From contig NZ_QGMY01000006.1 in the NCBI RefSeq assembly GCF_003173355.1, forward strand, positions 186,001 to 250,000: a stretch of 64,000 nucleotides of DNA, in the 5' to 3' direction. The notes beneath the pieces are model-generated. The model had not been told where the DNA came from. It was given only the letters and a program-made list of their open reading frames with translations, and did not search any database. Position numbers and translations under genes: made by a program. This DNA is from Methanospirillum lacunae. GTDB taxonomy: Archaea; Halobacteriota; Methanomicrobia; Methanomicrobiales; Methanospirillaceae. Positions 978-43,519 of the stretch are shown here, in pieces; positions within the stretch are counted from its first letter, which is position 1, and each line of letters starts with the position of its first letter.

Positions 978-1547
978 TTACCGCTTTAGACAGGACGCAA
1001 TATCTGTAGATCGTATTATTTGCACTCCGATGTTGGCCATATCCCTTACATTATTCTGGTGAATCTCATCATTCTGAGCTGCGGTTGCGTCAGTAGCCAG
1101 AAAAGTATGATAATTGTACGCCATGGCATCAAAGACTGTTGTCCTGATGCAGTTCGGAGTCTGAATACCTGCAACAACGATTGTGTCCACTGCCAGTGTC
1201 CGCAGGGTCAGATCAAGCCCGGTTCCGATAAAGGCACTCATTCTGATCTTGGGAAGCAGGTACTCACACTCCAATGGTGCAAGTTCATGGATCACTGCTG
1301 CACCAGAAGTTCCTTCAACAGCAAACGGGCTTTTTTGGAAGAGTTCTTTGCGCATAATCTCAACATCTGAACCATCAGAACGATGAATACGGACAACATG
1401 AAAAACCGGGAGACCCGCAGATCTGAACTGATCCAGGACATGCCGTATATTCGGAATGATTGAACGAGCCCCTTTGACCTGAAGTGGTTTCCCTTCAAGG
1501 ACAAAGTCATTCTGCATGTCAATGAGAAGGAGGGCGGCTTTTGACAT
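978..1547 (-). CDS. Isochorismatase-like cysteine hydrolase
   Basis: A 189-residue protein of the isochorismatase/nicotinamidase superfamily. The catalytic triad of the fold is visible: Asp10 in LLIDMQNDF, Lys100 in LLPKIRMSAF and Cys133 in IQTPNCIRTT. The cis-peptide region before the cysteine is also recognisable. The family hydrolyses amides or vinyl ethers (nicotinamide, carbamoylsarcosine, isochorismate), and the substrate cannot be told from sequence. It is convergent with the CheY gene and divergent from the TauE gene, so it is probably transcribed alone. Confidence 0.85.
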   Translation of the reverse strand: MSKAALLLIDMQNDFVLEGKPLQVKGARSIIPNIRHVLDQFRSAGLPVFHVVRIHRSDGSDVEIMRKELFQKSPFAVEGTSGAAVIHELAPLECEYLLPKIRMSAFIGTGLDLTLRTLAVDTIVVAGIQTPNCIRTTVFDAMAYNYHTFLATDATAAQNDEIHQNNVRDMANIGVQIIRSTDIASCLKR

Positions 1548-1671
1548 ACTCTAGTACCTGACCTGTACCAGTATCATACCAGCTATCCCCACAAGCGTGG
1601 CGCAGAGCAATAAGTTCAGAGACACAAATACCCTGTGAGAAGTATCATCAACACCGGAGACCGGTTTATTC

Positions 1672-2475
1672 ATGGATATTATACTCTACCTGCTTTCTCT
1701 GATTACAACCGGATCTGTTGCCGGATTCGCATCAGGCATGGTTGGCGTCGGCGGATGTTTCATCATGGTGCCGGTGCAGTACTGGCTGCTCGTCAGCGAC
1801 GGACTTGACAGTACCCTTGCCATCAGGGTTGCTTTTGCAACCGGTCTTGCAGTCACCCTTCCCACGGTGATGACATCAGCACTCGGGCATCATCGGAGGA
1901 AAGCAGTTGACTGGCAGACTGCAATACCGATGGGAGGTGCAGCAGTGGTTGGGGCTGTCACAGGCGGGACAATTGCAACATTTCTGCCAGGTCAGGTTCT
2001 CAAAACTTTTTTTGCCGTGCTTGTGACCCTGATGGCTGTAAGAATGTTTTGGAATGTAAAGGAATGCTTAGTCTGTCCTCCCAGACAATCACTGCCTGTG
2101 CTTCTCTTTATCGGGTTTTGCATCGGCAACATTACGAGTCTTGCAGGGGTAGGCGGAGGTGTAGTCCTGGTCCCGGTCCTGGTTCTCCTTCTGCATTATC
2201 CGGTTCACACTGCAATCGGAACTTCTTCAGCCTGTCTTATATTTTCATCAGCAGGAGCGGTAGCAACGTATCTCTGGCATGGACTCGGAGTTGCAGGTCT
2301 GCCACCATACTCTATCGGATATGTTGATCTCGTTCAGTGGGGAGTTCTCGTAGCAACAACCATTCCCCTTTCAATAGTGGGAGTTAAATATGCACATCGG
2401 TGCCCTGCAAAAATTCTCAGGTACTTTTTTGCTGTCCTGATGTTTATTGTCGGTGTTCTGATGCTTATTCCCTGA
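1672..2475 (+). CDS. TauE/SafE-family anion permease
   Basis: A 267-residue integral membrane protein with about eight hydrophobic segments. It is built as two similar halves, each starting with a glycine-rich loop: SGMVGVGGCFIMVPV near the N-terminus and AGVGGGVVLVPVLVL in the middle. This inverted duplication is the mark of the TauE/SafE family, which moves sulfite, sulfoacetate or other organic anions across the cytoplasmic membrane. The substrate is not deducible. It is a single gene divergent from the isochorismatase-like gene and convergent with the subtilase. Confidence 0.88.
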   Translation: MDIILYLLSLITTGSVAGFASGMVGVGGCFIMVPVQYWLLVSDGLDSTLAIRVAFATGLAVTLPTVMTSALGHHRRKAVDWQTAIPMGGAAVVGAVTGGTIATFLPGQVLKTFFAVLVTLMAVRMFWNVKECLVCPPRQSLPVLLFIGFCIGNITSLAGVGGGVVLVPVLVLLLHYPVHTAIGTSSACLIFSSAGAVATYLWHGLGVAGLPPYSIGYVDLVQWGVLVATTIPLSIVGVKYAHRCPAKILRYFFAVLMFIVGVLMLIP

Positions 2476-2557
2476 AAAGAAAAATCGTTTCAAATAAGGT
2501 TTGATTTGGAATACCAACCAAAAAAAATATTATTCTATCAGGTAAATTCCAAGGTGC

Positions 2558-2606
2558 AAAAAAAATAAGAACCCAGACTGTTCCGGATTATTCCATAAAC
2601 AGTTGG
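2558..2606 (-). terminator. Intrinsic-type terminator of the subtilase gene
   Basis: On the minus strand, just after the subtilase stop, arms ACTGTT (2603-2598) and AACAGT (2582-2577) pair. They are extended by CCA/TGG with one bulge, and an inner GGA/TCC stem is present. Bases TTCTTATTTTTTTT follow (T8 at 2565-2558). Hairpin plus T-run is a convincing 3' end. Confidence 0.6.
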
Positions 2607-2626
2607 CACTTTTCGTTACCGGTTGC

Positions 2627-4537
2627 TTACTTTATGCTTCTGTAAAGGGTAAGGATATCAGTAAAGTCAATCCTGCCATTTCCTGAAAAGTCAAACGCAG
2701 ATACAGGCTCATTAGATGCAATCCATTCGATCATCCTGAAATAAAGCTCTACATCTGTCTGATTACTGACACCATCACCATTCAGATCTTCATACTTCCC
2801 ATCATTGTTGAGATCACGGGGCTGATTGTTTTGACCCTGGAGAGGCTGAACTCCAACAGAGGGACTTAAAGTCTGAGTCACCGTCGGGGTTACCGTAGGT
2901 ACTTGTGTTGGAATCTGGGTCGGAACAGTTGGAGTTGCGGTTGGTTGTACTGTTGGTACCTCGGTTGGAGCCTGAGTTGGTGCAGGAGTCTGCGTAACTG
3001 TTGGCATTACCGTAGGTGCCTGAGTTGGAACGGTCTGTGTTGCAGTAGGTACTGCAGTCGGTACCTCTGTGGGTGCTCCACCAGTCGCAGCATTGAGGGT
3101 CTTTCCTGCATTTATCCTGCCTCCGGATACTACTTTTCCTGAGAATGCAGGAACCTGATCAGCATTATTCAGGATTAATTGTTTGATCTGATCAGTTGAG
3201 AGGCTCGGATTGACTGACAGGAGGAGTGCAGCAAGACCTGATACCTGCGGGGTAGCCATTGAGGTTCCTTTCATCTTGATATAGTCATACCCAAGAGCTG
3301 TAGGATATGTTGAGAGGATCCAGTCACCAGGAGCTGCGACATCTACCGAGGTAGGACCATAGTTGGAGTACGAGGGAATTCCATCTTTGGCATCACTTGC
3401 AGCAACTGAAATGATCTGTGGACTGTCAAAGCAGGAAGGATACTGGGCGATAATATCAGTATTGACTCCTGAATTTCCGGCAGCACAGACAATCGGAAGA
3501 CTGGTCTGGGAAACAGCATCACCAAGAGCTTCACTGCGGGTTGTTCCTCCCCATGAACAACTGATAACTTTGGCACCCATTGTCCGTGCATATGCAAATG
3601 CCTTGATTATACTTGCCATGTCTCCGTTACCATCTTTTCCGAGAACTTTAAGTGGCATAATCTTTACTTTTTGATTTACACCAGAGATACCGACACCATT
3701 GTTTCCAACTGCACCAATCACCCCTGCGCAATGAGTTCCATGACCGTTGTCATCCATGGGGTCATTTGTGTTGCTGATGAAATTCCATCCATGAACATCA
3801 TCGACATACCCGTTACCATCATCATCAATTCCATTTCCAGGGATCTCTTTAGAGTTTGTCCATATGTTCTGGGCTAGATCAGGATGATTATAATCAGCAC
3901 CGGTATCAATGACTGCTACCACGATTGAGTCGGAACCGGTAGTTTTTGCCCAGGCAGGAATGACATTGATATCATCACCGCTGGAACCGCCGTCCTGACC
4001 GGTGTTGTAGAGCGCCCACTGTTCGTTGAACCTGGGATCATTCGGCCCGCCCGATACCGATTCGGCACTCATTTTTTCCGGTCCCGGCGGTGTCGAGTTC
4101 TCATTTGGCATCAGGGACACGATATAATTGGGCTCTGCATACTCCACAAAGGAGGAATTAGTCAATTCAGTGACCGCCTGCTGAACAGTGACATTCTCTC
4201 CGGTATGGATCATCTGCATATTTTTGAGGCCTTCTGCTGAGAAATCATCAGATAACTCGGCTCCCATTGCCATCAGACCGGGTGACATAACACTCTCTGC
4301 TGATACCCCGCCGGATGGTTTCTTGTACCTGACAATAACTTCGCCAGGCACATACGGAGCGCCGGAAGAGGTATACGCCACCTGCGTGGCCGTAGGTGCA
4401 ACATTACCCGTTAATTGCGTCACAGATTTGTTATCAACTGCAGTTCCAGATCCGTCAGCGTTTACTGCCGGGAACAGGATTATTCCAAGAAAAATGGTGA
4501 AGATAAGAGATCTCCACAATACATGCTGATTTAACAT
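2627..4537 (-). CDS. Secreted subtilisin-like protease with dockerin domain
   Basis: A 636-residue S8 serine protease. Order: signal peptide (about 1-27), inhibitor-like propeptide (about 60-145), catalytic domain (about 165-480), Pro/Thr-rich linker (about 485-560), and a type I dockerin-like domain (about 575-636). The triad is Asp211 (VIDTGAD), His266 (NGHGTH) and Ser426 (GTSMATP), with oxyanion Asn355 (AAGNSG). The dockerin shows two calcium-loop motifs, DLNNDGKYEDLNGDG and DFSGNGRIDFTD. The linker is probably O-glycosylated. It should act outside the cell, perhaps anchored through a cohesin partner that is not in this window. A Shine-Dalgarno-like GGGGAAGG precedes the ATG. Confidence 0.93.
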   Translation of the reverse strand: MLNQHVLWRSLIFTIFLGIILFPAVNADGSGTAVDNKSVTQLTGNVAPTATQVAYTSSGAPYVPGEVIVRYKKPSGGVSAESVMSPGLMAMGAELSDDFSAEGLKNMQMIHTGENVTVQQAVTELTNSSFVEYAEPNYIVSLMPNENSTPPGPEKMSAESVSGGPNDPRFNEQWALYNTGQDGGSSGDDINVIPAWAKTTGSDSIVVAVIDTGADYNHPDLAQNIWTNSKEIPGNGIDDDGNGYVDDVHGWNFISNTNDPMDDNGHGTHCAGVIGAVGNNGVGISGVNQKVKIMPLKVLGKDGNGDMASIIKAFAYARTMGAKVISCSWGGTTRSEALGDAVSQTSLPIVCAAGNSGVNTDIIAQYPSCFDSPQIISVAASDAKDGIPSYSNYGPTSVDVAAPGDWILSTYPTALGYDYIKMKGTSMATPQVSGLAALLLSVNPSLSTDQIKQLILNNADQVPAFSGKVVSGGRINAGKTLNAATGGAPTEVPTAVPTATQTVPTQAPTVMPTVTQTPAPTQAPTEVPTVQPTATPTVPTQIPTQVPTVTPTVTQTLSPSVGVQPLQGQNNQPRDLNNDGKYEDLNGDGVSNQTDVELYFRMIEWIASNEPVSAFDFSGNGRIDFTDILTLYRSIK

Positions 4538-4780
4538 AGCATACCTTCCCCACCAGGGCTATTGAGAGACACAACCCTGTTAGTATGAATATTGGACCCA
4601 TGAGAATTAAGTACTACCTGCGTAGGGTATCATCAGGTGGTCAGAGGATGACAGGGATCAAGATCTTTTTGGAAAGATTCTGGATCTAAAATCAAAAAAA
4701 TATAAAGAGGATCACGTAGCCGAAAAATATGAAGAGTTCCTGAGTTTACTATGCTCATACTTACGAGATATTCATCAGAA

Positions 4781-5218
4781 TTATTTCTTTTCACCTTCGG
4801 TTGATGAAATTACATCGGCATAGTAGAGTTTAATAGTACCAGCGCCTTTTATCTGAACCTGATTCAGATTAACTCCCTTTTTTACAAGAAATACTTTAAA
4901 TGCAGTCGCATTATCACTCTCACTCCCTGTTGTGTACCGACCTCTCCATTGTTTATACGGAGAAATTTCAGGAAATGTATCGTTACCGGTAGTGACAGGG
5001 CCATACCATTTGCCATCAGTATGTTTTCCGTAAATCAAAATTTCAAAATGGAGAGGGAACATAATATCGTTCACAGATCCCCAGACATATGAATCATCAT
5101 ACCCATCAATCGTAACCATCGGGTCGGCCAGCCCCGGACTTATTCCCCCAATCAAGCCAACGCAAATAAAACAGCAAACAACTGCACACCGGATAACGGG
5201 ATCCTTTCGTGCACTCAT
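4781..5218 (-). CDS. Secreted protein of unknown function
   Basis: A 145-residue protein I do not recognise. A basic N-terminus and a hydrophobic stretch (about 10-30) ending near LADP make a signal peptide, so it is probably exported. The mature part is rich in Tyr, Trp, Gly and Asp (DGYDDSYVWGSV, YKQWRGRYTTG), suggesting a beta-sandwich, and it has no cysteines after the signal. An AT-rich box at about 5241-5248 lies near -26 to the ATG, so the mRNA may be leaderless. It sits between the MFS and subtilase genes on the same strand but is separated from both by more than 200 bases. Confidence 0.7.
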   Translation of the reverse strand: MSARKDPVIRCAVVCCFICVGLIGGISPGLADPMVTIDGYDDSYVWGSVNDIMFPLHFEILIYGKHTDGKWYGPVTTGNDTFPEISPYKQWRGRYTTGSESDNATAFKVFLVKKGVNLNQVQIKGAGTIKLYYADVISSTEGEKK

Positions 5219-5518
5219 ACATTGTATATCTGCTGGTCACCGTATAAGGGTTAAACTATTTGTACCCGAAAAATAAGGGTCGAATTAATAAAGATTACGT
5301 GTATGTCATAAATCTGTATACACTATAGTTTGAGAAATGATGATTTCTCCTGTAAAAACCGCTTGTTCGTTGAAATCGTTATGCAAACAAAACTAAAGAG
5401 ATATCCGGGTAAAAAGCGCACTTGTCATTTCCAAACCCGGAAAAACACGATTACATTGAGGTTGAAAAAAACCACGACAATGGGATATGAGTGCTTATAA
5501 AAAACAGGGTTTTTTAGT
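5219..5518. other. Intergenic region with one small hairpin
   Basis: These 300 bases separate the MFS gene from the secreted protein downstream of it. A perfect 7-base inverted repeat GAGAAAT (5332-5338) / ATTTCTC (5343-5349) with a GATG loop is present; it may mark the end of the MFS transcript. A TATA-like box near 5241-5248 probably serves the secreted protein. I see no gene here. Confidence 0.4.
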
Positions 5519-6796
5519 TTACATTCGAATTCCTTTTTTTCCGGCCATAAATATCATCACAGCCCCCAGACAGAGGATGAAAGTAATCACCGGCCATCCA
5601 CTATCAAGGGTCTTAAAAAGGGAGATGAGATATCCGGTTATCACCGGTCCGACAAAACCTCCGAGATTTCCAATTGAATTTATGACCGCAACGCCGACAG
5701 GCTGCTCATCTGGAGTAAACACGGAGAGCACATACGACCAGAACGGCCCGATAATTGATAAAATTCCGGATAATGCAATCGTGATGCCCAGAAGAGAAAG
5801 TATGGGATCTTCTGCCAGCTGATCAAGGGTCAGACCGGCTCCGGCAATGAAAAACAGAATAATAATGTGATAGAGCCGCTCGCCCCTGAGATCAGAATGA
5901 GAAGATACAAGAAACATACAGATAAGGGTCACAATATAGGGAATCATCAAAATGAGTCCGATAACTCTCATGTCAAGATCGTGGAGAAATGAACTTGAAA
6001 GTGTTGGAAGAAAGAAGATGATTGCATACATTCCGACAGTTACTGCAAAATAGGTCCCTGAAAAAAGCAGAACCCTTGTATCTGTCAGAATATCCCCAAG
6101 ACGATGAGATTTCATCCTGATTGTTCCGGATTCGAGCTCTGAAACCAGCCACTGTTTTTGATCAGAATCAAGCCAACCGGCATCAGCAGGCCGGTTTTTG
6201 AGAATGAAAAGTGAAAGAACACCAAATAGGATGGCAGGAATCCCTTCAATAATAAAGAGCCATCTCCATGATGCAACAGAGCCCCAGTTTACTGTATCCA
6301 GGATATACATCGAGAGTGGGGCTCCGATAATATTTGAGATCACAATTGCTGTTGAGAAAAGTGCAATTGATCTGGCAAGATACCGGTGAGGGAACCACGT
6401 ACCGAGGTACCAGATCATTCCGGGAAAGAACCCGGCTTCTGCTATACCGAGTAAGAATCTGAGAATAATCAGGTGCTCAGGGCTCTGGACAAATCCCATC
6501 AGCACGGCAACAAGACCCCAGGAGATCATGATCCTTCCAATCCAGATCCTGGCGCCCACCTTTTGCATGATGATGTTGCTCGGAACCTCAAATATCAGGT
6601 AGCCGATGAAAAAAATCCCGGAAATAAACCCAAATAACTCGGCACTTATGCCAAGATCAGGATTCATAACAATAGCAGCATAACCAAGATTGACCCTGTC
6701 AAGAAATGCAACGATATAGAGAAGTAATGCAAACGGAATAATGTGGAGACGAATGAGGCTAATGATCCTCTTTTCTGACTCCTGGCTGACCAGCAT
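5519..6796 (-). CDS. MFS transporter, anion:cation symporter type
   Basis: A 425-residue protein with about twelve membrane segments. The N-terminal half resembles the ACS family (sugar acids, phthalate, tartrate and similar anions): FLDRVNLGYAAIVM in helix 1, GYLIFEVPSNIIMQKVGAR at the helix 2-3 loop, and LRFLLGIAEAGFFPGMIWYL. It would import an organic anion with protons or sodium; the substrate is unknown. It is a single gene preceded by a hairpin that could mask its ribosome-binding site. ACS transporters are mostly bacterial, so lateral gain is possible. Confidence 0.85.
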   Translation of the reverse strand: MLVSQESEKRIISLIRLHIIPFALLLYIVAFLDRVNLGYAAIVMNPDLGISAELFGFISGIFFIGYLIFEVPSNIIMQKVGARIWIGRIMISWGLVAVLMGFVQSPEHLIILRFLLGIAEAGFFPGMIWYLGTWFPHRYLARSIALFSTAIVISNIIGAPLSMYILDTVNWGSVASWRWLFIIEGIPAILFGVLSLFILKNRPADAGWLDSDQKQWLVSELESGTIRMKSHRLGDILTDTRVLLFSGTYFAVTVGMYAIIFFLPTLSSSFLHDLDMRVIGLILMIPYIVTLICMFLVSSHSDLRGERLYHIIILFFIAGAGLTLDQLAEDPILSLLGITIALSGILSIIGPFWSYVLSVFTPDEQPVGVAVINSIGNLGGFVGPVITGYLISLFKTLDSGWPVITFILCLGAVMIFMAGKKGIRM

Positions 6797-23514: not shown

Positions 23515-23576
23515 CAAAATTCTTTGAGTGCTTGACATTTCCTAATCTTTTTTTATTCAGATGTAACAGTTACTTC

Positions 23577-23999
23577 ATGCATATCAATCCCAGATCATTG
23601 ATGACAGCAGGATTTGCCGGGGGTTTTATTCTTCTCATTATCAGTTTTGTAGCAGATTTTGCCACCCAGTTTGTTACACCGTATAGTATCTTTGAGGTTC
23701 CCGGCATGCGGAGCATATCTGATCCGGTTATGATGCTGTATTTCGTATACCCCTTTATTTTTGCATTTATTGCGGCCATTATCTGGCAGATTATAAGAGG
23801 ATCTCTTCCTGAAAATCAGAAGAGTGCAGCATGGCAGTTTGCAGGGATTTTATTCATACTTGTTATCGTGCCAAATATCTGGGTGATGTATACTTCAATG
23901 TTATATCCAACCGGGTTCTACATCTCTAATATTCTTACCGGCGTTATTGGGTATCCAGCGATAGGATATCTTAACGCTCGATTTAATAGAGGAAAATAA
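23577..23999 (+). CDS. Membrane protein of unknown function
   Basis: A 140-residue hydrophobic protein from ATG 23577 (the frame is open from TTG 23532, but the extra residues look non-coding). About four membrane helices are visible: near residues 10-30, 45-70, 80-105 and 110-130. No family motif is recognised. It follows ilvB by 62 bases on the same strand, so it may be read through from it, but no functional link is evident. Confidence 0.65.
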   Translation: MHINPRSLMTAGFAGGFILLIISFVADFATQFVTPYSIFEVPGMRSISDPVMMLYFVYPFIFAFIAAIIWQIIRGSLPENQKSAAWQFAGILFILVIVPNIWVMYTSMLYPTGFYISNILTGVIGYPAIGYLNARFNRGK

Positions 24000-24123: not shown

Positions 24124-25242
24124 TCAAGATTTATAGATTATTGAAATTATCTTTGGCATTCCGGAAGAATTTGACATCGCCGGATTTACTGGTCTCTTTT
24201 GTGTATCATGATTAAGACCGGAAGGACTTACATTCATTTTTGCGCTTTCATTACCGGTAACTTGTGAACTCTGATTCAGAACTTCTTTTGGAATAACCAC
24301 AGGAACACTTGCGTTTACCTTAACACTCTCATTCACAGTTACAGATTCACTCTGATTCAGAACTTCTTTTGAAGTGACTACAGGAACACTTGCGGTTGCC
24401 TTGACGCTCTCATTCACAGATACAGATTCACTCTGATTCAGAACTTCTTTTGGAGTGACTACAGGAACACTTGCGGTTGCCTTGACGCTCTCATTCACAG
24501 ATACAGATTCACTCTGATTCAGAACTTCTTTTGGAGTGACTACAGGAACACTTGCGTTTACCTTAACACTCTCATTGACTGGTGCTGGAGTACTCTGGTT
24601 CAGGACTTCTTTTGAAGTCACTACAGGAACACTTGCGTTTACCTTAACACTCTCATTGACTGGTGCTGGAGTACTCTGGTTCAGGACTTCTTTTGGAGTG
24701 ACTGCAGGAACACTTGCGTTTACCTTAACACTCTCATTGACTATTGCTGGAGTACTCTGGTTCAGAACTTCTTTCGGAGTGACTGCAGGAACACTTGCGT
24801 TTACCTTAACACTCTCATTGACTATTGCTGGAGTACTCTGGTTCAGAACTTCTTTCGGAGTGACTGCAGGAACACTTGCGTTTACCTTAACACTCTCATT
24901 GACTGGAGTTGGTGTACTCTGGTTCAGAACTTCTTTTGGAGTAACTACAGGAACGCTTTCGTTTACCTTCATACTCTCATTCACAGGTGCTGATGCATTC
25001 TGATGTATGGCAGTATTATTAGAACTTTTGTTGCCTGATCCCGGGTAATTGAGTATAACAATAACAACCGGATTCGAATCAGATGTTGTTGTTGTTTGAT
25101 TTACAAGATCAGATGCATTTTCTTTTGATGAAGACTGATTTTGGGGATCAGCTGACACACCCATAATCCCAAAACCAAACATCAGGAAACTCAAACAGAG
25201 AATAGTCGTAATAATAATTCGGTACCCATTACTTCTCATCAT
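24124..25242 (-). CDS. Secreted sequon-rich 27-residue repeat protein
   Basis: About 372 residues from ATG 25242 (ATG 25239 is equally possible; GGGGG precedes both). A signal peptide (up to about LMFGFGIMGVSA) is followed by an Asn/Ser/Thr-rich segment. Then come nine full copies and one degenerate copy of a 27-residue unit (81 bases) spanning 24256-24984, with consensus VNESVKVNASVPVVTPKEVLNQS plus a variable 4-residue end. Each unit carries three N-x-S/T sequons (NES, NAS, NQS), so the mature protein could carry about 30 N-glycans. No membrane anchor is obvious at the C-terminus. It is probably a surface or sheath-associated protein; the function is unknown. Confidence 0.8.
   Translation of the reverse strand: MMRSNGYRIIITTILCLSFLMFGFGIMGVSADPQNQSSSKENASDLVNQTTTTSDSNPVVIVILNYPGSGNKSSNNTAIHQNASAPVNESMKVNESVPVVTPKEVLNQSTPTPVNESVKVNASVPAVTPKEVLNQSTPAIVNESVKVNASVPAVTPKEVLNQSTPAIVNESVKVNASVPAVTPKEVLNQSTPAPVNESVKVNASVPVVTSKEVLNQSTPAPVNESVKVNASVPVVTPKEVLNQSESVSVNESVKATASVPVVTPKEVLNQSESVSVNESVKATASVPVVTSKEVLNQSESVTVNESVKVNASVPVVIPKEVLNQSSQVTGNESAKMNVSPSGLNHDTQKRPVNPAMSNSSGMPKIISIIYKS
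24256..24984 (-). repeat. Nine tandem 81-base coding repeats
   Basis: The period is exactly 81 bases, seen for example from AGGAACACTTGCG at 24301 to the same string at 24382. Central units are nearly identical at DNA level, which points to recent expansion or gene conversion. End units differ at the variable four residues and in VNAS versus ATAS. Copy number may vary between strains. Confidence 0.9.
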
Positions 25243-25431
25243 AACCCCCAATAAATCGCCAGAATGGAATATTTAAGACGTGATCCTACTCCGCATACGG
25301 CCGATTTATGTTTAGCATATCTATTCACTTAAGTTTATATTTATCGATAGAAGGATATCCATCCCTGTGTTGTAAATCCCACTGTCTTATCCAACTAGAA
25401 TATTTCACCCACTTGCAACAAGAATTTGTTT

Positions 25432-25506: not shown

Positions 25507-27192
25507 TTATCGGTGGCTGTAATATGCTACAATCCGTTGATCTGCAGAATCAATCCGGGAAAAACCCACCCTTTCAAACTGGACCATTTTACCTTTCCAG
25601 GTAGAGACTTCAGGTTCACAGACACCATTCATATCCCCGTCTGCTTTTCTGAGAAGACATGGAGTTCCATATCCTGAAGGAAGCCACTGGATAATCGGTG
25701 CCTTTGCTTCGCGGGCCTGCTGGAGATCGTCCCCGACATATGCAGCCGAATATGAACTCCCTTCTTTCCTGACTGAGATGTTGAAAAGATCCTTGAGCCT
25801 GATCATTGAAGCACCGGACTCAAGTTCTGCTTTTGGAACAACCAGTTTTCCAGTGAAAGGAATCTCACGAAATCCCCGGGCTTCATCTCCGGGATACCGC
25901 ATAGCCTTTGCAGTATGAGGGTTTGCTCCATCAATAGTGAGTTCTACCGGATCAGCCACAAAGAAGAAGCGGTCTGCTTTTGCATCCACAATATCCTTGT
26001 TCTTTGCATAGAGGTTCTCCCATGAGAACTGAATATCTGTATCACCAATACCAATGTCAATCACAGCATTACGGACTGCTTCAGGCTCTATTCCACGCCG
26101 GGCCATTGCTCGCAGTGTTCCCAGATGGACATCATCCCAACCGGTGTATTCACCGGCAAGGATTCCCTGCCTCATCTGTGAAGTTGAGAGTACAACACCC
26201 TCAATACCCATCCGGCCATAATGACGATATACGGGTTGTTTCCAACCCATGTAGTCAAAAATAAACTTCTGCCGGCCGGTATTGGCAATATGATCCTTGC
26301 CTCTGATCACATGGGTCATTCCAAGAAGATGATCATCGACCGCAACAGAGAGGTTCATGAGGGGGTAGACGATTGCATCAACCCGCTGATGTGAAACAGA
26401 TGTCAGAATTCGAAAGAGTGGGAAATCCCGCATTGCCGGATCAGGATGATTAAGATTGGTTTTAAGCCTAACAGAAACCTCCCCCTCGGCAAATCCTCCT
26501 TCAAGCATCTTATCAAAGAGTTCGCCAGCCTCTTCAGGGGTCTGGGAGCGGCAGGGGCATGCTGCCTTGTGCATCTTGAGGTTCTTGAATTCCTCATTAT
26601 CACAGTTACAGACATATGCTGCTCCTTTCTCGATCAGTTTCCTGCCGATATCATAGTAGAGCGGAAACCGGTCAGACTGGTAGATCGTCTCGGTGATGTT
26701 AAGCCCCATCCACTTGATGTCTTCAGGGACCATCTCGTATGCATCTGTATCGACCCTTTTTGGATCTGTATCTTCTATACGAAGGATATATTTCCCGCCA
26801 TACCTCTTGAGGTATTCATCATTGAGAAACGCTGCTCGTGCATGCCCGAGATGAAGAGGACCTGAAGGGTTTGGAGCAAACCTCATTACAACCCCGCCTT
26901 CTGTTTCTGGAAGGTCAGGAAGTGTATGTTTCTTCTTTTCTTTCTTTTCAGAAAGTGCTGCAAACAGATCAGGTGCAATTTCTTCAAGCCTGATCTCCTG
27001 TTCTTCATGCGAGAGGGCAGCAACCTCTGCGATAACTTCACCAAGAAGACCCTTGATCTCTCCAGACCGTGCCCGAAGCTCCGGATGCCCACCCATCACT
27101 GCGCCCATTACTGCACCAGCTGATGGAACACTCTTGTGTTTTACTGCATTCTGTAGTGCAGCACCGAGGAGAATGGACTTAAGATCGTCCAA
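25507..27192 (-). CDS. gltX: Glutamyl-tRNA synthetase, archaeal type
   Basis: A class I synthetase of 561 residues. The frame is open to 27288, but residues upstream of 27192 overlap the prenyl synthase and do not look like the family. A TTG at 27192, 6 bases after GGGGGT and one base after the upstream TGA, gives the usual archaeal GluRS start LDDLKSILLGAAL. The HIGH motif is HLGH in PSGPLHLGHARA; the KMSKS loop is the STSQMR variant. The C-terminal beta-barrel domain is of the GlnRS-like archaeal kind. It charges tRNA-Glu, and in archaea lacking GlnRS usually tRNA-Gln goes via GatDE. Confidence 0.94.
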   Translation of the reverse strand: MDDLKSILLGAALQNAVKHKSVPSAGAVMGAVMGGHPELRARSGEIKGLLGEVIAEVAALSHEEQEIRLEEIAPDLFAALSEKKEKKKHTLPDLPETEGGVVMRFAPNPSGPLHLGHARAAFLNDEYLKRYGGKYILRIEDTDPKRVDTDAYEMVPEDIKWMGLNITETIYQSDRFPLYYDIGRKLIEKGAAYVCNCDNEEFKNLKMHKAACPCRSQTPEEAGELFDKMLEGGFAEGEVSVRLKTNLNHPDPAMRDFPLFRILTSVSHQRVDAIVYPLMNLSVAVDDHLLGMTHVIRGKDHIANTGRQKFIFDYMGWKQPVYRHYGRMGIEGVVLSTSQMRQGILAGEYTGWDDVHLGTLRAMARRGIEPEAVRNAVIDIGIGDTDIQFSWENLYAKNKDIVDAKADRFFFVADPVELTIDGANPHTAKAMRYPGDEARGFREIPFTGKLVVPKAELESGASMIRLKDLFNISVRKEGSSYSAAYVGDDLQQAREAKAPIIQWLPSGYGTPCLLRKADGDMNGVCEPEVSTWKGKMVQFERVGFSRIDSADQRIVAYYSHR

Positions 27193-27193
27193 T

Positions 27194-28156
27194 TCAGTAC
27201 CCCCGTTGAACAAAGAAGTAGGCAAGGTCAGAGAGAAGTTGGCGTTCAGGACACTCACGAAGCACTGACAGACCATTGATAGCATCACGAACCATGTTGT
27301 CTGCTGTCGCCTGAACTTCAGAAATTACTTCCTTCTCCTGGAGAAGTCCGATGAGTTCCTTGATCTCTACAGGCTCAAGTTTTCTGCGGTACGGTGAGAG
27401 GTCAACACCTTTTTCACGGGCAGTAATCGCAATGATCGTCTGCTTTCCTTCCCTGATGTCAGAAGCCTGATCCTTTCCTGACTGCTCTGGAGGTGCCATC
27501 AGATCAATGATATCATCCTGGATCTGAAACGCTGCACCGATACTACACCCGTATATATACAATGCATCTATCTGTGGCCTGGTTGCACCGGCAAGTAATG
27601 CTCCCATTGCCGCCGCCGCTCCGTAAAGGACACCCGTCTTCTTGGTGACCATATCAAGGTACTCATCCCTGCTCACATCCTGCCTGGTCTCAAATGTCAT
27701 GTCGAGTTGTTGTCCTTCGCAAATCTCAACACAGGTCTTTGCAAGAAGTGCAGAGGCCTCAACCTTTGCAGCATCAGGAGCTATCGCGTCAGCAACAAGA
27801 CAGAATGATCGTGCAAAGAGCACATCACCTGCCAGTATTGCAGCGGGTTCTCCCCAAAGGGTGTGAACCGTCGGTTTGCCCCTGCGGGTTGCATCTCCGT
27901 CCATGATATCATCATGGATGAGAGTGAAGTTGTGGGTCACCTCAAGAGCCAGCCCTGCAGGTAAGATGCCTGCAGAACTTCCGGAGCGAATGGTGTCGGC
28001 TGCCAGTTTAAAGAGTGCCGGCCTCAGACGCTTCCCACCTGCAAAGAGCAGGTGGTTTGATGCCTTTGATAATTCGGTTCCGGGATTGCCATAATACTGG
28101 TCAAGCAGCGTGTTGACCTCGGTTGCAGTTTTTCGCAGATAGGTCTCCAGATCCAT
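27194..28156 (-). CDS. idsA: Short-chain isoprenyl diphosphate synthase (GGPP synthase)
   Basis: A 320-residue all-helical prenyltransferase. Both aspartate-rich motifs are intact: Asp82-Asp83-x-x-Asp86 (HDDIMDGD) and Asp214-Asp215-x-x-Asp218 (QDDIIDLM). The GGKRLRPAL substrate motif is near residue 40. It condenses IPP with allylic diphosphates to FPP and GGPP for archaeal ether lipids. It sits downstream of IPP isomerase and RNase J, and its stop abuts the TTG start of gltX. GGTGA precedes the ATG. Confidence 0.94.
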   Translation of the reverse strand: MDLETYLRKTATEVNTLLDQYYGNPGTELSKASNHLLFAGGKRLRPALFKLAADTIRSGSSAGILPAGLALEVTHNFTLIHDDIMDGDATRRGKPTVHTLWGEPAAILAGDVLFARSFCLVADAIAPDAAKVEASALLAKTCVEICEGQQLDMTFETRQDVSRDEYLDMVTKKTGVLYGAAAAMGALLAGATRPQIDALYIYGCSIGAAFQIQDDIIDLMAPPEQSGKDQASDIREGKQTIIAITAREKGVDLSPYRRKLEPVEIKELIGLLQEKEVISEVQATADNMVRDAINGLSVLRECPERQLLSDLAYFFVQRGY

Positions 28157-40222: not shown

Positions 40223-41002
40223 TCAGAGTGCCTGGATTAATGACTGGCGGGTCACGATGCCAACGACCTTGCCATTCTCAGTTACCGGCACGCTGCTGAA
40301 ATTCTTGGTGCACATAAGATCTATCACCTTGTTCAGAGGCGATCCCATCTCAACACTCTGCACTGATGCGGTCATGATATCCTGCACAAGGATGTTACGG
40401 ACTTGATGCTCCTGGTGGCGGTCATCAACCGAGTCGCGGAACTTCAGAAGGGCAACAGCAACATCAGTTTCAGAAACAATGCCTGCCATCTTCCCCTCGT
40501 TCATGACAACAAACCGGGCAATATTCTCATCAATCATCTTTCTGCGCAGGTGAACCATTCTTTCACCGGAATCGATGAACTGGACACGCTCCATTACAGA
40601 TGTCAGATCACCATCAGGGACCATCTTTCCGAGAATGTCACCTGAATTAACCTGACCGATCAGTTTGTTATCTGAGTCATAAACAACCGCGAGTTTGTAC
40701 CGCTCCTGCAGGAGTGGGATGAGGACATCAACTTCCTGATCATCATAGATGAAGGTAAAATCATCATCGATTGTATTGGAAACGTGGATAGCATTCGGTG
40801 AGACCTCTGTGCTGTGCTTTGCACCAAGTTTCTCCACGATTTTGTGACGGGACACTGTGCCAACCACTTCATCGTTGTGGACTACGATCAACGGGTCCAT
40901 TCCGACATCGAGCATTTTATCCAGTGCTTCGGTTACCGGGACTGACTTTGCAACAGTCACCGGTTTGGACATAACATCCCTGACAAGTATAGTATTGGTC
41001 AT
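40223..41002 (-). CDS. Four-CBS-domain protein
   Basis: A 259-residue protein made only of four CBS motifs, i.e. two Bateman modules: VRDVMSKPVTVAKSVPV, a second unit with DEEVDVLIPLL-like sequence, MVHLRRKMIDENIARFVVMNEGKMAGIVSETD, and IMTASVQSVEMGSPLNKVIDLM...VVGIVTRQSL. CBS pairs bind adenine nucleotides or S-adenosylmethionine and act as sensors. The target is unknown. It is the last of four consecutive CBS genes and overlaps the one before by four bases (ATGA). Confidence 0.9.
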   Translation of the reverse strand: MTNTILVRDVMSKPVTVAKSVPVTEALDKMLDVGMDPLIVVHNDEVVGTVSRHKIVEKLGAKHSTEVSPNAIHVSNTIDDDFTFIYDDQEVDVLIPLLQERYKLAVVYDSDNKLIGQVNSGDILGKMVPDGDLTSVMERVQFIDSGERMVHLRRKMIDENIARFVVMNEGKMAGIVSETDVAVALLKFRDSVDDRHQEHQVRNILVQDIMTASVQSVEMGSPLNKVIDLMCTKNFSSVPVTENGKVVGIVTRQSLIQAL

Positions 41003-41760
41003 AAAATCACTTCTCCTATGATATCATCTCTGGTTATAATTCCTTTTAGTCCCTGTCCATTCGTGATAATAAGGCAAGATATATGTTTTTCTGCCATTTC
41101 ACGAATGACATCGCCAGTCCGCGCTTTGTCATCAAGTGTGATCACCGGTGATCTCATCACATCTCCAGCCTTGAGTTTTTCAGGTTGAGTTCGTCCTTCC
41201 TGTGCAAAGGTGAGATCACTTTCAGAAATAATACCACTCATGCTGCCATCTTCTCCGGTTACTACAACTTTTCCACAACCAGACTGCATCAGATCGATCA
41301 CATGATCGAGTGAATGTTCCTTTGTTACCTGTTGTACATCATGCATCACCCCGGATACCGGACGATCCAGGCTTTTTACAAGCGGGGATCGTATCATGTC
41401 AGATTTGGTCACCATTCCGAGAACCATTCCCTGGTCTATTACCGGAAATCCCGAGATCTTATGGGTTACCATCAGAACCAGTGCATCATGAATACTGCTG
41501 CCTGGTGATATACTGATGATATCTACAGTCATGACAGATGAAACTGGCTCATTATCAGGAGATCTCCGCCGCCAGGCCGGGTCACGACTCCTGAGTCTGT
41601 ACCCAATATCCTTTTTGGTGATGATCCCTACAGCCCTTTGACCATCCATAACCAGAACTCTGGAGATATGGTGTTTCAGCATGAGGTTTCTGACATAGGA
41701 GACAGTATCATCGGGACCACAGACCCGTACGGGTGAACTCATCAGATCAGATATCAGCAT
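40999..41760 (-). CDS. Four-CBS-domain protein
   Basis: A 253-residue protein of four CBS motifs and nothing else. Examples: MLISDLMSSPVRVCGPDDTVSYVRNLMLKHHI, SVMTVDIISISPGSSIHDALVLM, GVMHDVQQVTKEHSLDHVIDLM and DVMRSPVITLDDKARTGDVIREM. Each ends in a G-I-I/V-T/S-x-x-D segment. It probably binds a nucleotide ligand as a stand-alone regulatory subunit. GGGTGATG stands before the ATG, which is 6 bases past the stop of the previous CBS gene. Confidence 0.9.
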   Translation of the reverse strand: MLISDLMSSPVRVCGPDDTVSYVRNLMLKHHISRVLVMDGQRAVGIITKKDIGYRLRSRDPAWRRRSPDNEPVSSVMTVDIISISPGSSIHDALVLMVTHKISGFPVIDQGMVLGMVTKSDMIRSPLVKSLDRPVSGVMHDVQQVTKEHSLDHVIDLMQSGCGKVVVTGEDGSMSGIISESDLTFAQEGRTQPEKLKAGDVMRSPVITLDDKARTGDVIREMAEKHISCLIITNGQGLKGIITRDDIIGEVIL

Positions 41761-41766
41761 GGTTCA

Positions 41767-42678
41767 TCACCCACTCTGCTGTTCTGTCGAGAGAGCCCTG
41801 ACGAGATCAAATTCAGTTACGAGACCGGCAAGCCTGCTGTTCTCAATCACCGGGAGAGCACCTACACCTTTCTCAAGCATTCTTCTGGCCGCCTCAGTGA
41901 TGGTCTGGTCAGGTTCAATGGTGTACAGGTTTCCATTTACAAGATCTCTGACTGGTTTTGCCATCACCTCTGCAACGTGACCGGTTACAAGGCTCTCAAA
42001 CACTTTGCCTGAACCAATATACCGCACAATATCAGTGGCAGTGATAATCCCAAAGACCACATCATTCTTGACGATTGGAAGCCGTCTGAACTGGTGACTG
42101 GTCATTACTTTGGTCACCATCGAGAGCGGACAGTCAGGTTCCTGCACAAGAAGTGAGGAAGTCATCACATCACTCACCTTGAGAGTGCTGTATGCCCGGC
42201 AGAGAAGTTTGAGAACATCGCGTTCAGTGACGATGCCGGTGAGAACTCCTTCCTCATCAACAATTGGTATTCCACCGATACGATCCTGCAAAATGATCTG
42301 GATCGCTTCGGAAAGATTGGCGTGGGGAGGTAGCGTCCTGACATCAGGCTTCATGATCTTGCTGACGCTTTCATTGATGGCAGCAAGGAAGTTGCCATCA
42401 TGCTTGATGTTGATGAGGTTGAACTTCTCACCTCCACCAAGAAAGTCTACCACGTCACGTGCAGTAAGAATACCTTTGAGACGATGAGTCCCGGGATCGA
42501 CGATGGGCAGACGGCGGACACCCCACTCAGTGAGAGTCTCGATTGCACCTATGATCCGCATTGTTTGAGGAGCCGAGATGACCTGCCTGGTAGCAATTGA
42601 AAGTACTGTCCCTAGATCATTATCATGTCTGGTGTGCATAATTGGTCTGATATTTGAGAAATATGATCGCAAATCCAT
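41767..42678 (-). CDS. Four-CBS-domain protein
   Basis: A 303-residue protein with a 20-30-residue N-terminal lead (MDLRSYFSNIRPIM) and four CBS motifs: VLSIATRQVISAPQTMRIIGAIETL, ISKIMKP-like VSKIMKPDVRTLPPHANLSEAIQII, VSDVMTSSLLVQEPDCPLSMVTKVM and VAEVMAKPVRDLVNGNLYTIEPDQTITEAARRM. It is second in the CBS operon. No enzyme domain is fused, so it must work on another protein or as a ligand buffer. Confidence 0.9.
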   Translation of the reverse strand: MDLRSYFSNIRPIMHTRHDNDLGTVLSIATRQVISAPQTMRIIGAIETLTEWGVRRLPIVDPGTHRLKGILTARDVVDFLGGGEKFNLINIKHDGNFLAAINESVSKIMKPDVRTLPPHANLSEAIQIILQDRIGGIPIVDEEGVLTGIVTERDVLKLLCRAYSTLKVSDVMTSSLLVQEPDCPLSMVTKVMTSHQFRRLPIVKNDVVFGIITATDIVRYIGSGKVFESLVTGHVAEVMAKPVRDLVNGNLYTIEPDQTITEAARRMLEKGVGALPVIENSRLAGLVTEFDLVRALSTEQQSG

Positions 42679-42740
42679 CCGTTACCTGGAGATACAGGTC
42701 CCGGTCTTTTCAAAAAACCAAAGGGATGGAGTTATTCAGG

Positions 42741-43307
42741 TCAGAGGCGGTCTTCTTCGTTGCAGAGTGAGCAGATAAGAGAACCGTCAACATTTGAGAG
42801 ATCATCTGACATCCTCCCACATCTGCTACACATCCCTGAAGAAAGATCTTTCGCCTGATTGATATCAATGAGTTCACCCATGAGCTCATTGATCTCAGTC
42901 GAGACTGCCATAATATCCCTGACACTCACTATCCCGATGACAATCCCCTTATCATTAATAATCGGCAGACGACGAACCCGGTTCTTTATCATAAGATGGG
43001 CCGCATCTTCCACAGATTTATCACCATGAAGTGTTATGAGCGGGGATGTCATAATCTCGTAGACATGGGCCTCACTAGGCTTGATGTCTTTAGCCACAAC
43101 CTTACAGTTGAGGTCCTGCTCAGTTACGATGCCGACGGCAACATTTTCCTTGAGAACGATACAGCTTCCGGAGGGATCTTTGTTGCACATCTTCCGTGCT
43201 GCATCTGCAACCGTTGCTCTATAATCTATGGTTTTCGGGTTCCTTCGCATGATATCCCGCACGGCCACCGAAGTGTCGAGCTGGATCTTCTCATTTGCGT
43301 ATGTCAT
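42741..43307 (-). CDS. Two-CBS-domain protein with C-terminal zinc ribbon
   Basis: About 188 residues from ATG 43307, chosen because GAGGTGA lies 7 bases before it; a GTG at 43316 is in frame. Two CBS motifs (VRDIMRRNPKTIDYRATVADAARKM and VYEIMTSPLITLHGDKSVEDAAHLM) are followed by a small four-cysteine zinc-ribbon-like tail: CSRCGRM...LICSLC. Similar CBS plus zinc-ribbon proteins are known in methanogens, but their role is not. It is the first gene of the CBS operon. Confidence 0.88.
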   Translation of the reverse strand: MTYANEKIQLDTSVAVRDIMRRNPKTIDYRATVADAARKMCNKDPSGSCIVLKENVAVGIVTEQDLNCKVVAKDIKPSEAHVYEIMTSPLITLHGDKSVEDAAHLMIKNRVRRLPIINDKGIVIGIVSVRDIMAVSTEINELMGELIDINQAKDLSSGMCSRCGRMSDDLSNVDGSLICSLCNEEDRL

Positions 43308-43519
43308 GGCTTTCACCTCTGTTATACCCGGGCAGATGCATCCAATCAGTTAATCATCCGGTTCAGATATTAATCCATCGGTCCCGGAATTTTCAGAAAG
43401 GATAGGAAACCTGCCAGGGTGGGATAACAACAATAATAATCCCCTCTGATCATATCCATACAGAAGGAACTCCGGATTTGCGGGAGTAAATGCCGCTTCT
43501 GCCGGTCAGGACGATACAT

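Follow-up and report, generated by a model that had tools for sequence, protein, structure and literature searches.

A predicted exported repeat protein of Methanospirillum lacunae with periodic N-glycosylation sequons, and sequon-bearing repeat families of its genus

The repeat gene and its sequon array

The window, a stretch of 64,000 nucleotides from Methanospirillum lacunae, carries on its minus strand a gene for a tandem-repeat protein (Table 1), and the preliminary description of a protein with 27-residue, sequon-bearing units was confirmed in one open frame. Repeat detection delimited the 81-base array as 9.0 copies at 24268-24994, all within this single frame on the minus strand. The ATG at 25239 is preceded, at a distance of 5 bases, by a GGGGG run (25245-25249). 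A plus-strand frame of 155 aa through the repeats (24536-25003) was read as the mirror of the 3n-periodic array and not as a gene; long opposite-strand open frames were also observed in the 13-aa and 14-aa families described below and were likewise ascribed to the 3n periodicity.

Table 1. Positions of the features at the repeat-protein locus (window coordinates) and at the sheath-protein locus of genome G024 (L114 coordinates)
Feature	Position	Strand	Remarks
Repeat-protein gene, stop included	24124..25242	-	371 aa from ATG 25239, 372 aa from ATG 25242
Predicted Sec signal peptide, residues 1-30, ending V-S-A, then D-P	25150..25239	-	Hydropathy
N-terminal flank, residues 31-86, 6 sequons	24982..25149	-	Shuffling test
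Nine 81-base (27-aa) units, residues 87-329, 25 sequons	24253..24981	-	Repeat and sequon count
C-terminal flank: degenerate start of a tenth unit (NES, NVS), 3 sequons, stop codon, without membrane anchor	24124..24252	-	
TATA-box-like ATAAATATAAA, possible promoter	25334..25344	-	By eye; ~90 bases 5' of the start codon
Upstream neighbour, gltX-like, used for synteny	25507..27288	-	
Downstream neighbour, small membrane protein	23532..23999	+	Sub-threshold Pfam match only
Probable mspA	L114 (G024) 4901-6034		Same strand as the AglB/STT3 gene
AglB/STT3 oligosaccharyltransferase gene	L114 (G024) 2219-4741		Pfam STT3, AglB core and AglB_L1 domains
mspA-like paralogue	L114 (G024) 1310-2140		Same strand as the AglB/STT3 gene

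Hydropathy analysis showed a maximum of 2.31 over 17 residues at the N terminus against at most 1.02 elsewhere, with a single N-terminal hydrophobic stretch ending in V-S-A and a second membrane segment absent, which supports export through a predicted Sec signal peptide. Proline, serine and threonine together make up 109 of the 341 mature residues, laid out in tandem units. Searches of Pfam and NCBIfam gave no domain above cut-off for the window protein. The matches of repeat proteins in these collections were set aside as repeat noise, among them PF10438 (in P0002) and PF07671 (in P0004), which passed the whole-protein cut-off narrowly, with no single stretch passing.

The sequons occupy positions 1, 7 and 20 of the 27-aa unit. 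The nine units hold 25 N-X-S sequons, namely nine NES at position 1, seven at the middle position and nine NQS, and the start of the tenth unit adds two; the earlier figure of about 27 in the repeats is thus reached only with this partial unit counted. The middle NAS had been described as lost only in the two ATAS units, and units 7 and 8 indeed lack it, but unit 1 carries NES there instead. The whole protein bears 34 sequons, which take up 34 of its 39 mature asparagines, whereas shuffled mature residues gave a mean of 7.96 and reached 34 in 0 of 20,000 shuffles. The further sequons noted in the flanks were borne out as well, both non-repeat flanks being enriched by themselves: the N flank with 6 sequons against 2.19 expected (reached in 88 of 20,000 shuffles) and the C flank with 3 against 0.93 (780 of 20,000).

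The units diverge more than was first thought. Pairwise DNA identity ranges from 75 to 100% with a mean of 85%, and only units 2 and 3 are identical in DNA, so that "near-identical" was too strong a term; homogenisation is seen in two blocks, units 2-5 and units 6-8, and a recent duplication giving rise to the identical pair is plausible from the sequence. Amino-acid variation was found at 1 of the 6 sequon-critical codons and at 11 of the 21 other unit codons. With few independent changes this difference was not significant (Fisher p = 0.18), and the array alone does not support the proposal that its sequon positions are selectively kept. Selection on the sequon was argued from the 14-aa family below for this reason.

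Since tandem copying multiplies whatever a unit contains, other proteins are a fairer control than shuffling. The background sample covered 459 kb, or ~12% of the window genome, with 379 called ORFs drawn non-randomly and mostly from contig C6, and among these the window protein ranked first by two measures, sequon density per residue and the fraction of asparagines lying in sequons. With the window protein left out and ORF classes assigned by hydropathy, that fraction was 321/1254 (0.256) in secreted ORFs, 172/1184 (0.145) in membrane ORFs and 383/3248 (0.118) in cytosolic ORFs. The rise in secreted ORFs could be a trace of a working N-glycosylation system, and is explained in part by their higher content of serine and threonine (0.168 vs 0.121). 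Three STT3/AglB matches above the Pfam cut-off were found in the window genome.

The same data bear on a neutral or contingency origin, in which slippage would have multiplied an exported low-complexity stretch that held three sequons by chance, any sugars being incidental. The identical units 2 and 3 and the lack of significant conservation of the sequon codons agree with such an origin, as does the presence of a sequon in ~20% of the 14-residue windows of secreted ORFs; yet at least three sequons occur in only ~1.1% of their 27-residue windows, and sequons are enriched in the non-repeat flanks as well.

Distribution of the gene and the two other sequon-repeat families

The upstream neighbour, which we take to be a glutamyl-tRNA synthetase-like gene (gltX-like), was used to locate the syntenic place in relatives, and the relatives found with its protein bear the name Methanospirillum. 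In G032, the nearest complete relative, whose gltX-like protein is 93% identical, this gene is followed after ~230 bases by the gene of the small membrane protein, and the repeat gene is absent there. In all, 11 genomes of the genus besides that of the window were searched (among them four incomplete bins of 64-88% and another of 84%), and the window gene was found in none, G012 (M. stamsii) giving a single low-complexity match; this pattern fits the neutral origin. The sole match of the protein besides itself among 61 family-level genomes was a low-complexity hit, 0 of 4 genus genomes searched beyond these had it, and among 199 order-level genomes it matched 1, its own. In addition, no homologues were found in genome_contigs, viral_contigs, phages or PDB sequences, collections from which records of its own genome were possibly excluded. 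As far as these searches reach, the window protein is lineage-restricted and without a detectable homologue.

An exported, lineage-restricted repeat protein might also serve as a variable surface antigen or a decoy for viruses or syntrophic partners, its value lying in repeat turnover and not in bulk glycan, and unit number does vary in the analogous families. We consider this very unlikely for a protein that has no anchor, no Pfam or NCBIfam domain above cut-off and no match in the viral or phage collections.

The low-complexity match in G012 turned out to be an unrelated exported protein made of 13-residue units with NKT or NKS. A search from it recovered its own family (P0002) and weakly matched a third exported family, the 14-aa FNSS family (P0003, P0004), with units like KFNSSEIGTMQNSQ. 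The main result of the wider search is that two other exported Methanospirillum repeat families are, by their predicted sequences, built on a periodic sequon, although the route by which they were reached favours sequon-like repeats and biases any count of convergence. All three designs combine export and tandem repetition with a sequon that has a fixed place in the unit. The window protein gave only low-complexity matches to the 13-aa and 14-aa units (E 0.001-0.2), and no homology was found between them.

Of 100 family-level genomes, 5 carry the 13-aa family, and each of these belongs to Methanospirillum. Like the window protein it is exported and tandemly built, with the sequon at a fixed position of a shorter unit and no proven homology. 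The asparagine is present in 49/49 units, whereas the full sequon stands in 37/49; the 12 units without it speak against a strict need for every sequon.

The 14-aa family was recovered from 9 of the 12 genomes of the genus and from 7/7 of the good ones. Its query matched 10 of 100 family-level genomes, the tenth through a hit in G011 (L093), outside the genus, that was rejected as spurious since it sits opposite another gene and lacks a sequon repeat; no relative was found in viral_contigs. These proteins share with the window protein a Sec-type N terminus, tandem units, the lack of an anchor and the genus, and differ from it in having one sequon per 14-aa unit and, in the window's clade, an mspA-like locus. 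Full units number from 2 in the window genome to 20 in G052, in proteins complete in their stretch, and the near relatives G032 and G062 have 8 and 10 against the two of the window genome.

When the 14-aa units were located by an anchor downstream of the sequon, F-N-X-S was present in 108/108 units from 8 genomes. The +2 serine is encoded by TCN in G024, G052, G046, G012 and G039 and by AGY in G062, G032 and the window genome (G000), and no single base step leads from TCN to AGY without an intermediate residue. A sequon kept in every unit across such codon switches argues against the neutral origin, which we regard as possible but rather unlikely for the window protein. The units are not independent events, because arrays homogenise within themselves, and the constraint may be on the FNSS motif instead of the bare sequon, since the phenylalanine before the asparagine is invariant and X is nearly always serine. 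The glycan reading of the window protein, a plausible one, is strengthened by this genus-wide pattern.

A tandem-repeat contrast to these exported families was observed in G052, where L090:717-2099 encodes a methyltransferase-like protein with a long ENQVQEYEAHIQGY-type coiled-coil repeat array and 1 sequon in 461 residues.

Sheath-protein loci and the stacked-fibre alternative

The sheath of Methanospirillum is an amyloid according to the accessible text of PMC6242892. In the window genome, G032 and G062, the 14-aa gene lies directly 3' of two mspA-like paralogues, whereas the 14-aa genes of G024, G052 and G012 sit away from the sheath-protein locus. The window gene itself is not near a sheath locus. 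mspA-like matches, several of them pieces of one gene, numbered 18 in G000, 26 in G032 and 19 in G062; G024, G052 and G012 gave 10, 10 and 12, some again being pieces of one gene. The mspA-like family thus appeared much larger in the window's clade than in the latter three.

At the corresponding place in G024, which is probably M. hungatei JF-1, the same methyltransferase-like gene is accompanied by a gene for a protein of 377 aa and 40.53 kDa with C271 and a predicted signal-peptide end at residue 23. These features agree with the JF-1 sheath amyloid MspA as published, for which a single cysteine is stated in the accessible text (PMC6242892). The G024 protein has C257 besides C271, so its identification as JF-1 MspA is given as probable only. 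The gene order within L114:1310-6034 (Table 1), with the predicted AglB gene between mspA-type genes, suggests that N-glycosylation and the assembly of the sheath are linked. The sequon-repeat gene in one clade and the oligosaccharyltransferase gene in the other share the sheath locus.

An amyloid sheath raises the alternative that the window protein forms a structural or adhesin fibre, either a beta-solenoid or amyloid-like, with stacked Asn/Gln/Ser ladders as in curli, whose N-X-S pattern would arise from stacking and not from glycans. AlphaFold2 modelled the protein as a beta-solenoid with strands throughout the repeats and block pLDDT ~57-81, and valines alternate in the units. However, even random perfect repeats are modelled as solenoids with confidence by single-sequence AlphaFold2, as described in the accessible text of PMC11795689, and the model was set aside as evidence for a rod, being of a type known as an artefact for repeats (PMC11795689). 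Moreover, prolines stand at several unit positions, stacking alone does not require that nearly all asparagines lie in sequons, and none of the 18 mspA-like matches of its genome is the window gene. Taken with these points, the stacked fibre is improbable. The dense surface glycan rod of the preliminary description fared unevenly: its glycan half is plausible in view of export, sequon density, oligosaccharyltransferase genes and the two further families, and its rod half is unsupported.

A putative glycopolymer and its known counterparts

We favour, with a probability of roughly 0.5, the reading that the window encodes an envelope protein which is dispensable, evolves fast, is saturated with sequons and probably N-glycosylated, and would serve as a hydrated spacer or filler. 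What could be found from sequence for an AglB substrate is the export signal (by hydropathy), the 34 N-X-S/T sequons (X not Pro) and STT3 genes in the genome. The Sec signal peptide would carry the protein across the membrane, an AglB-type oligosaccharyltransferase would decorate many of the closely spaced sites, and the unanchored chain, rich in V, P, S, T and N, would become a glycoprotein of extended, hydrated, bottlebrush-like form. As a soluble glycopolymer it could be kept between S-layer and amyloid sheath as a spacer, gel filler or lubricant with no need for an anchor, because the cells are enclosed by both layers. Glycan number and density would then matter more than any particular backbone, which would explain the unrelated 27-, 14- and 13-aa units, the varying unit number and the gene's absence in close relatives.

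A more far-reaching form of the proposal is that the S-layer/sheath compartment is filled by a class of N-glycan bottlebrushes in which only sequon density and spacing are selected, backbones being swapped freely between species (27, 14 or 13 aa), and whose connection with the sheath lies in the locus that 14-aa genes, mspA-like genes and aglB have in common. In this form, the long window array might even take the place of the 14-aa protein, which has only two full units in the window genome. This extension we hold to be unlikely as a whole.

Two known classes of repeat glycoproteins offer comparisons. Mucins carry O-linked glycans on the serines and threonines of tandem repeats of variable copy number; mucin-like repeat proteins resemble the window protein in being tandem, probably extended, saturated with sugar sites and variable in copy number, whereas the periodic element of the window protein is an N-linked sequon. 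HMW1-type adhesins are large bacterial proteins with many N-X-S/T glycosites modified by a cytoplasmic enzyme, and resemble it in being repetitive, exported and densely set with N-X-S/T sites, although no sequence relation was found (Pfam search only). If glycosylated, the window protein and its analogues would represent an archaeal, N-linked counterpart to mucins.

Archaeal S-layer glycoproteins, which are AglB substrates, are likewise exported and rich in N-X-S/T. For those of Sulfolobales the accessible text of PMC12153357 gives about one glycosite every 30-40 residues, compared with one sequon per 10.9 residues in the window protein; if all of its sequons were glycosylated, its site density would be ~3 times or more the figure given there for the densest archaeal S-layers. 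Sequons may stay unoccupied: an archaeal S-layer protein with eight of them is reported to have shown no glycan (PMC12153357). The S-layer protein of M. hungatei, built of Ig-like domains with PGF-CTERM, stains as a glycoprotein, and unidentified connecting densities were described in the gap between S-layer and sheath (accessible text of PMC11641113). The window protein gave no Pfam match to DUF3821, Ig-like domains or PGF-CTERM, only one sub-threshold unrelated hit.

No description of sequon-periodic archaeal repeats or of Methanospirillum repeats was found in the literature searched, including the accessible texts of PMC10266531, PMC11607397, PMC2913515, PMC12153357, PMC11641113 and PMC6242892. 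Sequon-rich exported archaeal proteins are already known; the periodic design of the window protein is unusual and has no known relative. The repeat families are short, regular and testable objects for the function of archaeal envelope N-glycans, and point to unstudied components between S-layer and sheath.

Elsewhere in the window, two features stood out on inspection by eye. One is an apparently exported, subtilisin-like protease (2627-4537, minus strand) that has a linker rich in Pro/Thr and ends in a dockerin-like segment; the other is a run of four consecutive genes resembling those of CBS-domain proteins (40223-43316, minus strand).
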